From Ignavibacteriales bacterium (GTDB lineage: Bacteria > Bacteroidota > Ignavibacteria > Ignavibacteriales > Ignavibacteriaceae): a DNA stretch of 40,641 nt. Under the pieces are notes generated by a model. The model worked only from the letters and a program-made list of their open reading frames with translations. It did not search any database and had not been told where the DNA came from. Both the position numbers and the translations under genes were made by a program. The first letter of the stretch is position 1, and every line of letters starts with the position of its first letter. The DNA lies in contig JAAYVN010000083.1 in assembly GCA_012517155.1 (NCBI GenBank), forward strand, positions 1-40,641. Reading direction: 5' to 3'. Shown here in pieces: positions 4,551 to 24,529 of this stretch.

Positions 4551-6032
4551 CTATAAAGTTGCATCCAAGAGATAGCTTTTTACCTTAGATGCATCGATCC
4601 TTATCTGTTCCATTGAATCCCTCTCGCGTATTGTCACACTATTATCCTGCAAGGTTTGAGTGTCAATAGTCACAGAATAAGGAGTTCCGATTTCATCCTG
4701 TCTGCGATATCTTCTTCCAACAGCTCCCTTGTCATCATAAAATACACGCAGATTTTTACGAAGTTCTGCAACAAGTTTTTCGGAGAATTCAGGCATACCA
4801 TCCTTATTAACCAATGGAAGGACGGCTGCTTTAACAGGAGCAAGTTTAGGATTCAAGCCGAGGACAACTCTTTGCTCATTATTAACCATTTCTTCTCTGT
4901 ATGAGTCAACAAGGAAAGCCATAAAGGATCGGCTTGCACCCGCAGAAGTTTCAATTATGAAGGGGGTGAATTTCTCCTTACTCTCTTCATCATAATACTT
5001 CAATGATTTTCCCGAATATTCCTCATGTCTGGCAAGGTCAAAGTTTGTGCGGTTATGTATTCCTTCAATTTCCCCCCAGCCAAACGGGAACAGGTATTCG
5101 ATATCGGTAGCTTCTTTAGCGTAATGAGCAAGCTTATTTTGCGGATGGTCATGATATCTAAGTTTATCCTTATTCATGCCGAGATTAAAGAACCATTCCA
5201 TTCTTGCATTTTTCCAATAGTCATACCAGTTTTTATCATCCGCCGGTTTAACGAAGAACTGCATCTCCATTTGTTCGAATTCTCTTGTTCTAAAAAGGAA
5301 GTATTTGGTGTTAATCTCATTGCGAAAAGCTTTTCCGATCTGGGCAATACCAAACGGAAGCTTCTGCCGAGAGGATGATTGAACATTCAGGAAGTTAACA
5401 AAAATACCCTGAGCTGTTTCAGGGCGCATGAAAACAACGGCTCCTGAATCCTCCACAGGACCTATGAATGTTTTGAACATTAAGTTAAATTGTCGTGCTT
5501 CAGTAAATGTGGCTTTATTCCCACACTGCGGACAATTCATAACCGCAAGAAGTTTATTGCTTGTCTCCTTATTATCGAGAAGCGAGTCGAAAAGTTCGTT
5601 GACTTTCTCTTCATCTTTAGGAGCAACATCATTAAAATTCGCAGAGCTGAAAGACGGATCAGATTTAACTTCCTCAAGATACTTAAACTTCTTTTTAGGA
5701 GCAATACCATCAGCGAGCACATCAAGACGGAAACGGCTTTTACACTGCTTACAGTCAATCATAGGATCAGTAAAATTCTCCACATGGCCAGAAGCTTCCC
5801 AAACCCTTGGATGCATCAAGATGGAGGCGTCCAAACCTTCCACATCATCGCGGTATGTCATGAACTTCCACCACTCTTCCTTAATATTTTTCAGCAGTTC
5901 AACACCAAGCGGACCGTAATCCCAGCATCCATTAAGACCACCATAAATTTCGCTGGATTGAAACACAAAGCCTCTTCTTTTAGCCAACGACACAATTTTT
6001 TCTAAAACGTCATTATTCTTTTTGTCGCTCAT
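4551..6032 (-). CDS. glyS: Glycyl-tRNA synthetase, homodimeric type
   Basis: Charges tRNA-Gly with glycine. The 493-aa chain is the single-polypeptide class II form found in archaea, eukaryotes and many bacteria, not the two-subunit GlyQ/GlyS form. Visible marks are the N-terminal KRRGFVFQSSEIYGGLNGCW, a zinc-type insert with CKQC and CPQC pairs, motif 2 in the region RPETAQGIFVNF...FRTREFEQMEMQ, and motif 3 (ETSAGASRSFMAFLVDSYR). The C-terminal part is the anticodon-binding domain (VLPLVNKDG...). A predicted promoter lies at 6081-6112, giving a leader of about 40 bases with no T-box or other riboswitch that I can see. The TPR gene follows closely. Confidence 0.96.
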   Translation of the reverse strand: MSDKKNNDVLEKIVSLAKRRGFVFQSSEIYGGLNGCWDYGPLGVELLKNIKEEWWKFMTYRDDVEGLDASILMHPRVWEASGHVENFTDPMIDCKQCKSRFRLDVLADGIAPKKKFKYLEEVKSDPSFSSANFNDVAPKDEEKVNELFDSLLDNKETSNKLLAVMNCPQCGNKATFTEARQFNLMFKTFIGPVEDSGAVVFMRPETAQGIFVNFLNVQSSSRQKLPFGIAQIGKAFRNEINTKYFLFRTREFEQMEMQFFVKPADDKNWYDYWKNARMEWFFNLGMNKDKLRYHDHPQNKLAHYAKEATDIEYLFPFGWGEIEGIHNRTNFDLARHEEYSGKSLKYYDEESKEKFTPFIIETSAGASRSFMAFLVDSYREEMVNNEQRVVLGLNPKLAPVKAAVLPLVNKDGMPEFSEKLVAELRKNLRVFYDDKGAVGRRYRRQDEIGTPYSVTIDTQTLQDNSVTIRERDSMEQIRIDASKVKSYLLDATL

Positions 6033-6080
6033 ATATTACTTTTCCTATTCATTTAGTATGTAGTTTTACAAATAAAGTTT

Positions 6081-17070: not shown

Positions 17071-17331
17071 ATGCAAGCATCTATTGAAATGAGCCTTTAC
17101 CCGCTAAAGGAGAGTTATAAAGAAATAATAAAGAAATTTTTAGAAGATATAAGAAAATCAAATGAAAACCTTCTTATCGAAACAAACCCGATGAGTACGC
17201 AAATATTTGGCGATTATGACGAAATTATGGATCTTTTAAGAAGAGAAATAAAACCTGTACTGGAAAAAAACAAGGCAGTATTTGTCGTGAAGTTTCTGGG
17301 TACGAATCTTAAGGAGGAAAACAAAAAATGA
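17071..17331 (+). CDS. Small thiamine-binding-type protein (MTH1187/YkoF-like)
   Basis: The 86-aa protein matches the MTH1187/YkoF-like ferredoxin-fold family: QASIEMSLYPLKESY at the N terminus, NPMSTQIFGDYDEIMDLL in the middle, and a final strand AVFVVKFLGTNL. Members bind thiamine or its pyrimidine part (HMP) and are thought to act in uptake or supply of the vitamin. There is no signal peptide, so it is cytoplasmic. The start is backed by AGGAAG about 5 bases upstream. Its stop overlaps the start of the next gene (ATGA, 17328-17331). No thiamine transporter or TPP riboswitch is visible nearby. Confidence 0.8.
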   Translation: MQASIEMSLYPLKESYKEIIKKFLEDIRKSNENLLIETNPMSTQIFGDYDEIMDLLRREIKPVLEKNKAVFVVKFLGTNLKEENKK

Positions 17332-19393: not shown

Positions 19394-20356
19394 TCAAAAA
19401 TTCATATTCCGTATTTGAATTATTTTCGCCGCAATGCTTACGGCTATTTCCTCAGGTGTCTTGCTGTTTATTGCCACCCCAATTGGAGCATCAATTTTTT
19501 TTATTTTATCTTCTGCAACCCCCTTTTGCCTGGCTGAGTTTACAAGCTGCCCGATTTTGCTTCCGCTTCCCATTACCCCCACATATCGGACATTCAGGTC
19601 TAGGGCGATAATGGTAGCCTCCAAATCCAAATGCTGAGTATGTGATACAATAACCACAAAGGATTCATCACCCCCCTCTATATATTGCCCGATTTCCTCA
19701 ACTGGAGAGTGATGTATCTCGTCAGCAAAGATGTTCTCAGTTACGGTTGAAATATCCTTTCTCTCATCAAATAGCACTACCCGCCAGCCAAGTATTTTCA
19801 TTTGCCGCGAAACAGCAAGGCCAACATGTCCACCACCCACTATGTATATAGTCGTTTTGATGTTTATTGGTTCAGTGTACTTAAAATCATTTTCACTCAG
19901 CATATTGAAACCAATTTTAATAGAGTCATTAAAATCCTTTATTTCCAGGCCATGGTCACTTAAGGATAATACCCGTACTCTTCTATCTGAGAAGCAACGG
20001 TTGATTTCATGAAGGGCGGGAAGATCTTTTTCATCAAGGCTGTTTATACTGACGAACTGAGAACCTTCGCAGATTAACCCCGAGCGCTTTTCACTTTCAA
20101 TATTTTTATGGATAAACTCTCTGAGATAATTGAAATCGCCGGCAGCATTCAGTCTTTCTATAAGAGTATTAACAATTTTGTATTCCATGACTCCGCCGCC
20201 AATACTCCCGAACATTGATCCATCCCTAAAAACGGCCATTTTGAAGCCCTCCCGTCCTGGGGAGGATTCACTGGAGTTGCAGACAACCAGCAGAGCTCCT
20301 CTTTTTTTTATGCTTAATTCTTTTTGAAGCCTTTCAAAAAATTCAGCATTATTCAT
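19394..20356 (-). CDS. xdhC: XdhC/CoxI-type molybdenum cofactor maturation factor
   Basis: XdhC proteins bind molybdenum cofactor, help its sulfuration and insert it into xanthine dehydrogenase-type enzymes. The 320-aa protein has the N-terminal XdhC domain (LLVVCNSSESSPGREGFKMA, GSIGGGVME) and a C-terminal Rossmann domain (YIVGGGHVGLAVSRQM, VVLFDERKD, VIVSHTQHLD, YVGVMGSGSK). Its ATG overlaps the stop of the upstream membrane-protein gene (ATGA, 20353-20356). It is the last gene of the xdh operon, which places it as the dedicated maturation factor for the XdhAB pair. The shared terminator at 19360-19387 ends the transcript. Confidence 0.92.
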   Translation of the reverse strand: MNNAEFFERLQKELSIKKRGALLVVCNSSESSPGREGFKMAVFRDGSMFGSIGGGVMEYKIVNTLIERLNAAGDFNYLREFIHKNIESEKRSGLICEGSQFVSINSLDEKDLPALHEINRCFSDRRVRVLSLSDHGLEIKDFNDSIKIGFNMLSENDFKYTEPINIKTTIYIVGGGHVGLAVSRQMKILGWRVVLFDERKDISTVTENIFADEIHHSPVEEIGQYIEGGDESFVVIVSHTQHLDLEATIIALDLNVRYVGVMGSGSKIGQLVNSARQKGVAEDKIKKIDAPIGVAINSKTPEEIAVSIAAKIIQIRNMNF

Positions 20357-20853
20357 CTGAATATCACCTCACTTAATGAATAATAAATTGCCATCAACGC
20401 AGAAAATCCTGCGCTTGCAATAAACCGGTACTTTGCGTTTATATAATTCTGAATTACCCAATTTGCTGTCAGCGATACAGGTATGTTGAATGCGAATGAA
20501 AGAAGCCCTATGTGAAGCAGACCAAATTCTATACTGGAATAATTACCTGTAAAAATATTGATAAAAAGCAGATGCCTGGCAATCCATAAGGGATTGAAAT
20601 ATACTATCGCTAGTAATGTTCTTTTAATTTGGTCAATTGTCTTTTTATTATCAGCAACTTTTTTATTAATCCAGTTAAAGTAATTCGGAATTTCCGCCGC
20701 ATAAATAATTCCACCAACCAATACCATTCCCGCAAACCGGCTGATACTGAAATTACCCGCAATCAGACAGGCCACTGTATCCCCCGCACTGTATATAAGC
20801 ATCCCCCTTACTATGTTAGGGATTGTATACCATCTTAATATTTTTTTTATCAA
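20353..20853 (-). CDS. Small membrane protein in the xdh operon, possibly Mpv17-like
   Basis: The 166-aa protein has about four hydrophobic segments (near 15-33, 40-55, 80-105 and 110-160) and no signal peptide. Its layout recalls Mpv17/PMP22 membrane proteins: a GD near the first helix (IYSAGDTVACLIAG), a central P-x-Y/F-x-W-like turn (IPNYFNWINKK), a proline before the third helix (FNPLWIARHLLF), and a C-terminal NWVIQNYINAKYRF then a final helix ending SLSEV. This resemblance is by eye and tentative. The start is a TTG at 20853 whose last two bases begin the stop of xdhB (TTGA). The end overlaps xdhC by four bases, so its translation is tied to both. The role is unknown; transport or a membrane link for the enzyme is conceivable. 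Confidence 0.65.
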   Translation of the reverse strand: MIKKILRWYTIPNIVRGMLIYSAGDTVACLIAGNFSISRFAGMVLVGGIIYAAEIPNYFNWINKKVADNKKTIDQIKRTLLAIVYFNPLWIARHLLFINIFTGNYSSIEFGLLHIGLLSFAFNIPVSLTANWVIQNYINAKYRFIASAGFSALMAIYYSLSEVIFR

Positions 20854-23108
20854 ATCATTTCCGATGGATAGAGGTACTTTAACACGCGCTCCGGAGTAAG
20901 GGGTGAAGTTATTATCTCGGGCACACAGTTTCTGAAACTCTTGATAGCATTAAGAATGGCAAAGTAAACAGCTATTCCGTACATAAGGGGGGGTTCTCCA
21001 ATAGCTTTTGAATTCATAACTCCTTTTATGTTGGGAGAATTTTCTAAAAATTTGATGTTAATTTTTCGCGGAGTATAGTTAATATCTGGAACTTTGTATG
21101 TTGAAAGGGCATTGGTTAAAAGGATCCCTTTCGCATTAAATAGAATTTCCTCCATTGTCATCCATCCTATCCCTTGCATTAGAGCTCCTTCAGCCTGTCC
21201 CATATCAATTAGTGGATTCAGACTTTCCCCAAAATCATGAATTATGTTTACGCTTTCTACTGAATATGTTCCCTTCAGGCAATCCACTTCAGCTTCAATC
21301 ATCGCACTCCCAAACGAATAATAGGCAAAGGGATTCCCCTTGTTAATCCCCGGATCAAAACTAATTCCGGGCGTGGCATAATGAGCCTGCGCACAGAGAC
21401 TAACCCGGTTTACATATGCTTTGGAAATCAATTCCTTCCAGGTCATTTTAATTTCTTTCCCGATAAGAATGTTTTCATCCTTAAAATCCACTGATTCCTC
21501 TTTCACCTCGAATAAGTCACAGATGAAAGTGGTAAGTCGTTTTTTGATTTCCAATGAAGCTATTTCGGTTGCTTTACCATTCATGTCGAATCCCACACTC
21601 GCCGCTGTAGGAGATGTATTCGCAACAGTTTTTGTGGATGTGCTTTCGGTTTTAACTTTGGAAATATCAATGGAAAAAATCCGGGCTACCACCTGTCTTA
21701 TTTTCATGTAAACTCCCTGACCCATTTCAACTGCTGCCGTACTAACTGCAACAGTGCCATCAGTATAAATGTTTACAAGTGAAGCTGCCTGATTTAGCAT
21801 CGTGTTGGTGAAGGATATCCCAAAACAGATTGGCATAATTGCAAAGCCTCTTCTTTTATATCCTTCCTGCTGATTAAACTTTTCAGTCTCCGATTTAATC
21901 GCCTCAAGATCTACTATCTGTTTAAGTCCGGAAAAACATTTCTCCGCTGTAGAGTTTATCATTATCTGCCCATAGGGGAAAGATTTCCCGTCACTTATTA
22001 AATTCTTTTCCTGGATTACGTGTGGTGGAATTTTTAATTTTTCAGCTGCTTTATAAATAGCAGACTCAATAACAAACATTCCTTGAGGTCCTCCGAATCC
22101 CCTGAACGCTGTATTGGGAACCAGATTTGTTTTACAGGCGATACCTGTGGCTTTAACGTTTGGAATAAAATAACTGTTCGTGGAATGAAACAGAGTCCTG
22201 TCCAAAACCGCTGTGCTAAGATCCGCAGCAGCTCCGGAATTTTGATAAAACGTAACCTCGTATGATTTTATTATACCATCTTTGCTCAATCCAATCTTAT
22301 AATCAGAACTGTAGGGATGTCTTTTCCCGGTTATTTTAACATCATCTCCTCTTGGTAAAATAACCTTAACTGCGGTTTTGAGAGTATAAGCTGCTAAAGC
22401 ACTTAAAACACCCCAGACTGTTGCCTGATCTTCTTTGCCTCCGAATCCCCCTCCGAGACGCACTGCCTCAACCTCAATTTTATGCATGCCTATTCCTAAG
22501 ACATTTGCTATTGCCCTTTGAACCGCCGTTGGTCCCTGTGTCGAGGAAATAACTCGCAGGTTATCCCCTTCCAATGGGATTGCAAGCGCACCTTGTGTTT
22601 CTATATACAAATGTTCTTGTCCTCCGGAATCAACCCTCCCCTCAATCACGACATCGCTTTCCTCGAATCCTTTTATTGTATCTCCACACGCAAAGACTCG
22701 CGGTGGGGCTATCAAACTTCCCTTTTTAAATGCCTCTCTCGGATCAGTAATAACTTCGCTCGGAATATATCTGATTTCTATTTTTTTTCTTGCCTTGATA
22801 GCCAGATGCCTGCTTTTTGCTACTATTAGCGCAATTGGTTGCCCGATATAATGAACATATCTTTCAGCAAACAAAGGTTCATCCTTGATTATACTGCCGA
22901 TCTGATTCTCTCCCGGAATATCTTTATAAGTAAGTATACGAACTACGCCTTCGGATTTTATTGCTTCACCATAATCAACTCTCTGAATTTCCCCTGCTGC
23001 AATTGAAGAATAGAATACTGCCGCATGGAGTGTGCCGGAGGGTTCGCGATAATCATCCGCAAAAATTGATATGCCTCTGACATGATTTATTGTGTCATTA
23101 TTTATCAT
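20850..23108 (-). CDS. xdhB: Xanthine dehydrogenase-type molybdopterin-binding large subunit
   Basis: This is the molybdenum-cofactor subunit of a xanthine oxidase-family hydroxylase, 752 aa, covering the usual two Mo-binding domains. Active-site marks match xanthine dehydrogenases: GGGFGGKEDQ with E226, AFRGFGGPQG with R335 (equivalents of the purine-binding Glu and Arg of bovine enzyme), and the catalytic base Glu in AIGEPPLMYG near the C terminus. AAVEMGQGVYMK is another conserved Mo-domain loop. This supports purine (xanthine or hypoxanthine) hydroxylation rather than an aldehyde or CO substrate, though related purine enzymes cannot be excluded. It overlaps xdhA by four bases (ATGA) and the membrane protein by four. 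Confidence 0.93.
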   Translation of the reverse strand: MINNDTINHVRGISIFADDYREPSGTLHAAVFYSSIAAGEIQRVDYGEAIKSEGVVRILTYKDIPGENQIGSIIKDEPLFAERYVHYIGQPIALIVAKSRHLAIKARKKIEIRYIPSEVITDPREAFKKGSLIAPPRVFACGDTIKGFEESDVVIEGRVDSGGQEHLYIETQGALAIPLEGDNLRVISSTQGPTAVQRAIANVLGIGMHKIEVEAVRLGGGFGGKEDQATVWGVLSALAAYTLKTAVKVILPRGDDVKITGKRHPYSSDYKIGLSKDGIIKSYEVTFYQNSGAAADLSTAVLDRTLFHSTNSYFIPNVKATGIACKTNLVPNTAFRGFGGPQGMFVIESAIYKAAEKLKIPPHVIQEKNLISDGKSFPYGQIMINSTAEKCFSGLKQIVDLEAIKSETEKFNQQEGYKRRGFAIMPICFGISFTNTMLNQAASLVNIYTDGTVAVSTAAVEMGQGVYMKIRQVVARIFSIDISKVKTESTSTKTVANTSPTAASVGFDMNGKATEIASLEIKKRLTTFICDLFEVKEESVDFKDENILIGKEIKMTWKELISKAYVNRVSLCAQAHYATPGISFDPGINKGNPFAYYSFGSAMIEAEVDCLKGTYSVESVNIIHDFGESLNPLIDMGQAEGALMQGIGWMTMEEILFNAKGILLTNALSTYKVPDINYTPRKINIKFLENSPNIKGVMNSKAIGEPPLMYGIAVYFAILNAIKSFRNCVPEIITSPLTPERVLKYLYPSEMI

Positions 23109-24529
23109 ATCAGTTCCTCCGCTCTAATATCATTAGGAAAGAGTTTTATAAAATGCAAATATATTAACTGGCGCAGAAGCAGACGTTTATATTCCTTACT
23201 GCCGCGAGCATCACTGATTGGAGAGATCTCTTCCATTGCGACTGAGGCTGCTTTCTTAATAGTCTCAGGATTGATTTCTTTGTTTTTTAATTCTGCCGAT
23301 GTTTGTTTTAGGTATAATGGAATTGGTGCCACTCCACCTGCGGAAATCCTCACTTTATTTATTTTATTGTTATTCATTATTGCAAATAATGCCGAGTTAA
23401 CGGATGCAATATCAAGATACTCTCTTTTGCTTACTTTCTCAAAATTCATCTTAAAGTCTGGTCCCGGTAACTGGATTATTATTTTGTTTATTGTCTCATC
23501 CTCCGCACAATCCACAGTCTTGTACGAGATAAAAAAGTTTTCCAGTTCAATCTCCCGCGTTTTGGTGGAGGATGTGATTTCCAGTTTGGCACCGAGCGCC
23601 AGTAGTATGTTCGAGAAATCACCGATAGGAGATGCATTTCTGATGTTCCCGCCGGCGGTTGCTCTGTTTCTTATTTGTCTGGATCCAAAATATTTTAAAT
23701 ATTCTTTGATAGCCGGAAAAGTTTCGCTAATCATTTTGGAATTCTCTATTTCCGACATTGTGGTTAATCCGCTTATCTTCAAAGAACCATCTGCAATTTC
23801 GATTTTTTGTTCCGGAATATTTTCATTTAATATCTCCAGAACATAATCGGTAACCCCCTCCGATTGCTGCACATAAATATCTGTGCCCCCCGCAACTTTT
23901 GTAGTTCCCTTAGTTTGTTTTCTTATTCCCACTACCCCGGACGACATCTTTATTAATTCCTCTTTTACTCCCGCAAAATACTCCGGAATAAGGGAAAGTC
24001 TTATCAATTCGTTAATTCGATTTTCATCCTCATTTATCTTTGTTTCAGCCCAATCCGAAAAACGTTCAATCACCCGCTTTATCGAAATATGTCCGGTACA
24101 GCGACAGATATTTCCTGCAACCGAGTCGGTAAGCGTACTTGTTTCAACTTCAGCCCCGCTCAGCAAATGCCCGGTAATTGAGACTATAAAACCGGGAGTG
24201 CAAAAACCACATTGTGAAGCCCCCTCTTCCAAAAACAATTCTTGCACTTTTGTCAGCTGCTCTTTCTGAATTCCTTCAATCGTTACAAGATGCTTCCCTG
24301 CAATCTCTGCCACCGGGAAAAGACATGAGTTAATAGTCTTATAAATTATATCGTCCCCGTTCAATTCGCCAATTATTACAGTACAGGCACCACAGTCCCC
24401 CTCTTTACACCCTTCCTTTGTACCGGTCAATCTTAGATCATTACGGATTACATCCAGCAGCGGAGTTCCCGGTTTTACGGATATCTCTTTTATTTCATTG
24501 TTACACAGAAATTTAATTTCTTTTTTCAT
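23105..24529 (-). CDS. xdhA: Xanthine dehydrogenase-type small subunit, 2Fe-2S plus FAD
   Basis: The 474-aa protein fuses the two iron-sulfur domains with the FAD domain, as in XdhA of two-subunit bacterial xanthine dehydrogenases. The ferredoxin-like cluster uses C41, C46, C49 (CKEGDCGAC) and C69. The second cluster uses C107, C110 (CGFC), C142 and C144 (CRC). The FAD domain shows KVAGGTDIYVQ and RNRATAGGNIRNASPIGD. It carries electrons from the molybdenum site to NAD+ or another acceptor. It is the first gene of the operon xdhA-xdhB-membrane protein-xdhC. A possible promoter with a 23-base spacer lies upstream. No purine transporter or later purine-breakdown gene is in the window. Confidence 0.94.
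   Translation of the reverse strand: MKKEIKFLCNNEIKEISVKPGTPLLDVIRNDLRLTGTKEGCKEGDCGACTVIIGELNGDDIIYKTINSCLFPVAEIAGKHLVTIEGIQKEQLTKVQELFLEEGASQCGFCTPGFIVSITGHLLSGAEVETSTLTDSVAGNICRCTGHISIKRVIERFSDWAETKINEDENRINELIRLSLIPEYFAGVKEELIKMSSGVVGIRKQTKGTTKVAGGTDIYVQQSEGVTDYVLEILNENIPEQKIEIADGSLKISGLTTMSEIENSKMISETFPAIKEYLKYFGSRQIRNRATAGGNIRNASPIGDFSNILLALGAKLEITSSTKTREIELENFFISYKTVDCAEDETINKIIIQLPGPDFKMNFEKVSKREYLDIASVNSALFAIMNNNKINKVRISAGGVAPIPLYLKQTSAELKNKEINPETIKKAASVAMEEISPISDARGSKEYKRLLLRQLIYLHFIKLFPNDIRAEELI

Follow-up and report, generated by a model that had tools for sequence, protein, structure and literature searches.

The window analysed here, a stretch of 40,641 nucleotides from an Ignavibacteriales bacterium, carries within its xanthine dehydrogenase operon a gene for a 166-residue membrane protein. 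Judged from sequence profiles and predicted models, this protein appears to be a distant bacterial relative of Mpv17/PMP22, the pore-forming proteins of mitochondria and peroxisomes, and thereby a variant within a known fold family, one repeatedly tied to xanthine dehydrogenase. Our preferred reading, drawn by analogy and given a probability of about 40%, is that it forms a five-helix inner-membrane protein that would provide a small passage, selective or gated, for a purine of xanthine dehydrogenase, most likely urate on its way out of the cell.

The operon lies on the minus strand and comprises xdhA (23105..24529), which encodes the 2Fe-2S/FAD small subunit, xdhB (20850..23108), which encodes the molybdopterin-binding large subunit, the membrane protein gene (20353..20853) and xdhC (19394..20356), which encodes the maturation factor. 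Each gene overlaps its neighbor by four bases. The TTG start of the membrane protein gene shares its four bases with the TGA stop of xdhB, and the ATG of xdhC does the same with the stop of the membrane protein gene. The preliminary description of this DNA had reported a membrane frame of 166 residues with a TTG start and four-base overlaps with xdhB and xdhC, all of which is borne out by reading the open frames; it had placed the frame correctly but gave no strand. Because there are overlaps on both sides, the membrane protein can fairly be expected to be synthesized in step with the products of xdhB and xdhC, and the TTG start suggests a low output. XdhC has a match to XdhC_C (1e-31), XdhB scores 787 bits against TIGR02965 (NCBIfam cut-off 849.5) and XdhA scores 359 against TIGR02963 (NCBIfam cut-off 467). 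With all three proteins below the NCBIfam equivalog cut-offs, xanthine dehydrogenase is their best-fitting name rather than a formal one.

The membrane protein gene, assigned from the open frame, the family alignment, the predicted model and a profile-profile match, is present as a single copy in the genome of the window. It is a real gene and not a chance frame, because it has 16 aligned homologues at 43-57% identity, and the resulting alignment of 17 members (A3) contains 29 invariant columns and has a mean column identity of 65%. Among the invariant columns of A3 are G24 (with D25 nearly so), E54-I55, F86-N87-P88-x-W90-I91-x-R93-H94, P125 and N131, together with Q135-N136, R143-F144, F150-S151 and Y157-Y158. 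The family as a whole is unnamed and has 20 distinct members, the last three of which (L183, L184 and L185) were found after A3 had been built; L185 deviates, as judged by eye, at N136 and S161. For the window protein, neither Pfam (E ≤ 10) nor NCBIfam (E ≤ 1) offers a matching model. A Pfam scan of further members returns scattered weak names, every match with a displayed cut-off falling below it, and PHROGs yields weak matches only. Searches of the PDB by sequence return two matches for the window protein (E of at least 0.027) and two for the family (E of at least 0.07), none of them meaningful.

Counting the genome of the window in each case, relatives occur in 6 of 146 related genomes, and the gene is found in 8 of 395 genomes of a phylum sample and in 9 of 245 genomes of a class sample. 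The 226 genomes of the order to which G172 belongs give three matches, one of them weak and broken by stops and the other two already-known members. A species-wide genome collection yields six loci (Flavobacteriaceae, Olleya, Crocinitomix and Saprospiraceae), the scan being sensitive to close relatives alone and thus a record of finds within Bacteroidota rather than of absence elsewhere. No relative of the window protein is found in viral contigs, again by a scan reaching close relatives only, or in plasmids. In three flavobacterial members (L012 near 5989-6070, L013 near 5962-6064 and L015 near 5965-6067), the open frame offers no ATG, GTG or TTG codon ahead of the helix 1 GD, and for this reason these genes must have either an unusual start codon or coupling to the preceding gene, or else contain an assembly error.

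Two structural models were predicted, one with the window protein and one with the L014 protein as the first sequence. The window-first model (seven sequences; pLDDT 69, pTM 0.66) contains five long helices and a short one at its low-confidence start, and the L014-first model (pLDDT 72, pTM 0.65) agrees with it, although both draw on the same seven sequences, are hence not independent, and are of middling confidence. All of the helices are encoded on the minus strand and the conserved columns of the alignment can be placed upon them. Predicted helix 1 (residues 11-32, 20758..20823) holds the pair formed by the invariant G24 and the nearly invariant D25, which aligns with the GD of Sym1. Predicted helix 2 (residues 37-65, 20659..20745) holds R39, G47 and the segment EIPNY (54-58), and predicted helix 3 (residues 72-102, 20548..20640) holds the stretch from F86 to H94. 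Predicted helix 4 (residues 110-137, 20443..20526) houses P125, N131 and Q135-N136, and predicted helix 5 (residues 140-165, 20359..20436) houses R143, F150-S151 and Y157-Y158. Charged and polar invariants are thus located within the predicted helices, which would fit the handling of a polar solute. Lysine and arginine are concentrated at the N-terminus (a mean of 1.35 over 17 members), in loop 2 (4.59) and in loop 4 (2.59), as opposed to loop 1 (0.06), loop 3 (0.12) and the C-terminus (0.24), and from this distribution the topology is, by the positive-inside rule, N-in and C-out.

The preliminary description had likened the protein to Mpv17/PMP22 channels, a guess that draws no support from Pfam but holds up better than Pfam alone indicates. 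The window protein has no match to PF04117 at E ≤ 10, the gathering score being 27 bits, and the model weakly matches only 2 of 12 members, with a best E of 0.49. The sole such alignment that was examined, for L009 (E 1.8, 9.1 bits), covers the wrong part of the protein, out of register. A scan of 149 genomes from the class, together with 14 controls, finds no PF04117 match over the cut-off. The model, however, has only 62 positions and covers the C-terminal part of the known members, and a full-length profile-profile comparison was made for this reason. The Mpv17 side of the comparison consisted of three Mpv17-type proteins, their identity judged by PF04117 alone, which each of them passes (98, 66 and 80 bits against 27).

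With hhalign, the 17-member alignment matches these three proteins over 146 columns with a probability of 70, a P-value of 4e-5 and a score of 36.8, and the 20-member alignment gives a probability of 65.5 and a P-value of 5.9e-5. The reversed Mpv17 profile scores 13.8 and the reversed family 12.2, while 400 controls with columns shuffled inside ten-column blocks have a mean of 13.7 and a maximum of 25.6, none of them reaching 36.8. Taken singly, the Mpv17 proteins score 18.3-20.0 over 90, 120 and 142 columns. The best of 92 hydrophobic open frames from the fetched loci, used as decoys, scores 19.4, and none reaches 90 columns, such that for single Mpv17 proteins the scores are about those of the best decoy and a clear gap exists in aligned length only. 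The alignment keeps one register across all five helices. It brings together the GD pair in helix 1, one R and one G in helix 2, a P in helix 3, a P and an N in helix 4 and an R before helix 5; D, R, P, P, N and R are the residues conserved in both families. At the level of profiles, the family is hence related over its full length to known Mpv17/PMP22 members. The C-terminal motif WPxxQxxNF..P...R (cf. A4) is not retained as such: its P..N and its later R survive, its W and Q are lost, and the second P is present in some members only.

The predicted fold leads to the same family. In a search of BFVD, a set of predicted viral protein models, with the window-first model, the match at rank 2, and the best with a name, is a "Putative Mpv17/PMP22 family protein [Tetraselmis virus 1]" (TM 0.60/0.68, E 0.096, probability 1.00), the other top match being the unnamed M1I2L4 (TM 0.57/0.63, E about 0.1, probability 1.00). 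The L014-first model places the Tetraselmis virus 1 protein at rank 1 (TM 0.70/0.80, E 3.5e-3, probability 1.00) and M1I2L4 third (TM 0.51/0.57), with the other displayed rows at a TM of 0.38 or less by query length. The structural side of the comparison with Mpv17 proposed at the outset is thus supported, between models that are on both sides predicted. M1I2L4 is a viral protein of 147 residues with a predicted fold close to that of the putative Mpv17/PMP22 protein of Tetraselmis virus 1, and is possibly a further viral protein of the Mpv17 type. Three motif patterns for Mpv17 sequences find 1, 8 and 1 viral contigs, and the frames at and around the matches, in nine distinct contigs, contain no Mpv17.

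Against the PDB, the best Foldseek match has an E of 0.35, and VIA-align gives best Z values of 5.6 (chain M3 of Tetrahymena complex IV, 7w5z) and 5.8 (a taste receptor), both helical chains in a range of Z that the tool calls common. This outcome would be expected if the PDB contains no Mpv17 structure; a sequence search with Sym1 (E ≤ 1) finds no similar chain there. Mitochondrial carriers termed COXMC1-3 are described for Tetrahymena complex IV in PMC10227065, and chain M3 may be one of them.

Compared with the known members of Mpv17/PMP22 (PF04117; human MPV17, yeast Sym1, mouse Pxmp2 and plant PMP22), the proteins described here share a length class, a full-length register and the predicted fold, along with the helix 1 GD, the helix 2 R and G, the helix 3 P, the helix 4 P..N and the R before the last helix. 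A further point of likeness is a link to urate, reported for the Pxmp2 branch in PMC2662417. In contrast, this family is bacterial, sits beside xdh genes and falls below PF04117. It is without the Q of GDxxxQ and the GPxxHxWY, DQ and WPxxQ motifs (cf. A4), having instead its own motifs EIPNY, FNPxWIxRH, IQN and YYxLS. Four helices are described for Mpv17/PMP22 in PMC6767901, as against the five in the models here.

Two other transporter families invite comparison. The NCS2 xanthine/urate permeases (PF00860) would handle the same substrates, if the purine reading is right, but most matches to them are frames of about 400-470 residues as opposed to 166. The L-alanine exporter AlaE (PF06610), which we take to be a small helical exporter with a resembling ADT near helix 1, RL at helix 2 and FQSPV at helix 3, is ruled out as the nearest kin by a profile comparison that gives 0.5%. 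PF06610 has no match in the window protein and none over its cut-off in 59 relatives.

The connection to xanthine dehydrogenase recurs across the family, with xdh genes adjoining the gene in 16 of the 20 members. The order xdhA-xdhB-gene-xdhC is found at seven loci (the window, L007, L014, L016, L072, L183 and L184), and the short contig of L017 shows xdhB-gene-xdhC. The order xdhA-xdhB-gene is seen in L013, L015, L070 and L071, and in L012 with an acetyltransferase gene in between. The remaining arrangements are xdhB-gene in L185, gene-xdhC-xdhA-xdhB in L073 and gene-xdhC at the end of a contig in L011. The last three members to be found, which came to light after the link to xdh had been proposed, all adjoin xdhB. 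Of the four members away from xdh genes, one (L074/L186) stands alone, with the xdhB of the same genome on a different contig. The other three, L008, L009 and L010, which come from the same bacterial family as the window, share a second setting, with no xdh gene within the stretch read, that has an AhpD-like gene upstream and, by our own reading, an rdgB-like gene downstream. The nearest relative of the L009 amidohydrolase is 5'-deoxyadenosine deaminase, and the second setting is again one of purine chemistry. The full order in these three loci is uvrA-like, AhpD-like, membrane protein, an amidohydrolase in L008 and L009, and rdgB-like, the uvrA and rdgB assignments having been made by eye.

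The preliminary description had called for a survey of xdh operons for this gene, and the pairing is seen for most members when viewed from the gene but for few genomes when viewed from xdhB. In the phylum sample of 395 genomes, XdhB occurs in 48 (E ≤ 1e-100), the gene in 8 and both in 6; the gene is thus carried by 6 of the 48 genomes with xdhB, compared with 2 of the remaining 347 (Fisher p 5.6e-5). Since the other 42 of these 48 genomes do without it, the membrane protein is optional for xdhB genomes. Two genomes with the gene, G016 and G020, are without a close XdhB. In the order of G172, XdhB and an intact membrane protein are confined to the same two of the 226 genomes; these two were known beforehand and the co-occurrence is therefore a check on 224 negatives. 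At the gene-less loci that were read, xdhC directly follows xdhB in 9 of 19. In a tree built from 35 XdhB proteins, seven changes are needed to account for the label of having the gene beside it, at least five of them forced by well-supported branches, and the link to xdh is for that reason not an accident of one lineage. The pairing of the gene with xdhB has, on this tree, been gained or lost several times. The label is more clustered than in shuffles (2 of 500 equally low), and the XdhB of the window is nearest to a gene-less XdhB from its own family.

Some properties of the eukaryotic proteins bear on what the bacterial one might do. In PMC6767901, MPV17 and Sym1 are reported to form wide pores that shut when the voltage is high, and Pxmp2 a pore for solutes of up to about 300 Da. 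Pxmp2-deficient mice are described in PMC2662417 as having a partly latent peroxisomal urate oxidase, uric acid raised in blood and urine, and a reported decrease in allantoin excretion (P 0.067 in the legend). The same text ascribes these effects to restricted permeability of the membrane, the loss of Pxmp2 limiting how urate enters peroxisomes, and also infers a second route for urate. Loss of MPV17 is reported to lower mitochondrial deoxynucleotides (PMC4711891), and a role as a dTMP transporter has been proposed for it (PMC7050145).

The preferred reading, a conduit for urate leaving the cell, would place these observations in the following sequence. Purine bases would be oxidized by XdhAB to urate, which a cell without OHCU decarboxylase, an enzyme of the common pathway of urate breakdown, would keep undegraded by that pathway, and the urate would then leave across the inner membrane through the membrane protein. 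That the protein conducts a solute, that the solute is a purine and that it moves outward are all three steps that we infer. Purines, with urate first, are the guess at a substrate because a relative of Mpv17/PMP22 sits in a urate-making operon. As an always-open wide pore would collapse the proton gradient of the inner membrane, the bacterial version would have to be narrower or gated, unlike a pore such as Pxmp2. E54, R93, H94, N131 and D25, all within predicted helices, are the natural candidates for such narrowing or gating.

The enzymes and permeases of purine metabolism were compared between genomes with the gene and xdhB genomes without it, the urate-breakdown routes covered being PF01014 and PF09349. 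These searches took in 17 of the 20 members' genomes (leaving out G786, G787 and G567) and 34 of the 42 gene-less XdhB genomes (leaving out eight with a more distant XdhB). None of the 17 gene-bearing genomes has OHCU decarboxylase, versus 10 of the 34 gene-less ones, and uricase (PF01014) is found in 1 of the 51 genomes of both groups together. PF00860 permeases occur in 5 of the 17 gene-bearing and 20 of the 34 gene-less genomes, each count including one weak match, and the genome of the window has two of them. Setting aside G016 and G020, which are without a close XdhB, and G039 and G045, in which XdhB was not tested or seen, leaves 13 genomes, of which 3 have such a permease versus 20 of 34 (p 0.049). 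Either trait is present in 3 of 13 against 30 of 34 (p 4e-5, kinship ignored). A kinship test has four independent pairs, with the trait differing in one or two; it has no power and lends no support to a pattern independent of kinship. Outside the class of the window, OHCU decarboxylase is found in 0 of 8 genomes with the gene versus 10 of 10 without, a split that follows families, named contigs having been placed by their titles. Within the class it occurs on neither side, and permeases are present in 2 of 5 genomes with the gene versus 20 of 24 without (p 0.07).

The same family and fold could also serve in the opposite direction, as an uptake conduit that feeds hypoxanthine, xanthine or guanine to XdhAB. 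In its favor, L070 has immediately before xdhA a gene whose best PDB match is "Guanine deaminase" (1tiy/1wkq, E 3.6e-59), similar genes, by eye, precede xdhA in L013 and L015 and stand one frame off in L071, and PF00860 permeases are less common in genomes with the gene. The genome of the window, however, has two such permeases of its own, and the permease pattern may reflect kinship; we regard uptake as unlikely. A more basic objection would be that the likeness to Mpv17 is a convergence of small helical membrane proteins, and that the family is unrelated and unnamed with a transport role of its own. This would account for the failure to reach PF04117, an hhalign probability of 70 and not 95, models of middling confidence and the missing WPxxQ, DQ and GP motifs (partly in A4). 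It sits poorly with the single register over five helices and its six shared residues, with the 400 block shuffles falling short in score and the 92 hydrophobic frames in length, with the recovery of the same viral Mpv17/PMP22 protein from two models and with the 0.5% given to the Escherichia coli AlaE control, and we find it quite unlikely.

The remaining explanations dispense with a solute. The protein might hold XdhAB at the inner membrane as a dock, perhaps so that electrons reach the quinone pool, which would agree with the overlaps on both sides and the recurrence beside xdhB. The conserved residues, however, are mostly within predicted helices, the gaps between helices, of seven residues or fewer, leave hardly any soluble arm, and three members have as neighbor an amidohydrolase or rdgB-like gene, the stretch that was read around them containing no xdh gene, all of which makes a dock decidedly unlikely. 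A helper in assembly or maturation that works with XdhC is suggested by the position of xdhC directly after the gene in the window, L007, L014, L016, L017, L072, L183 and L184, but no xdhC follows it in L013 and L070, and with so many xdhB genomes managing without the gene such a role is very improbable.

If the preferred reading of a urate conduit is correct, it would offer a hint at how these bacteria handle the urate made by their own xanthine dehydrogenase. It would also be of use for Mpv17, a protein of medical weight in that its defects are reported to deplete mitochondrial DNA, since a bacterial relative of 166 residues in an operon of known chemistry provides a guess at its substrate, namely purines and urate first. 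A broader proposition is that Bacteroidota hold a true prokaryotic branch of Mpv17/PMP22 that passes the urate of xanthine dehydrogenase, that the permeability of Pxmp2 to urate is an old trait and that the family is not a eukaryotic invention, which is conceivable but on balance doubtful. Rat PMP22 is listed as eukaryotic in origin in PMC1472686, and that listing of the peroxisomal protein would, if the proposition is true, be put in question. The authors of PMC4117752 place the first duplication of the MPV17 family before the radiation of eukaryotes and give for MPV17L2 no bacterial counterpart linked to protein synthesis. Among the matches listed from the open-licence literature, in the excerpts that they provide, no bacterial Mpv17 is described, and an earlier notice elsewhere is possible.

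Several smaller features of the loci were also recorded. Extra open frames part xdhA from xdhB in L073 (2372-3307) and in L169. The former is presumably a nuclease of the PD-(D/E)XK transposase type and the latter, we assume, a small transposase. Small deaminase genes lie near the flavobacterial xdh operons in L013 (1677-2180), L015 (1582-2091), L070 (1916-2386), L071 (11175-11648) and L012 (6476-7033); TadA is the nearest NCBIfam model for those of L012 and L013, below the TadA cut-off, and the copies in L015 and L071 were judged by eye. Elsewhere in the window, on the plus strand, 17071-17331 encodes a protein of 86 residues with a Thiamine_BP/YKOF match, just upstream of a same-strand gene for a 671-residue protein that looks, by eye, to be secreted.
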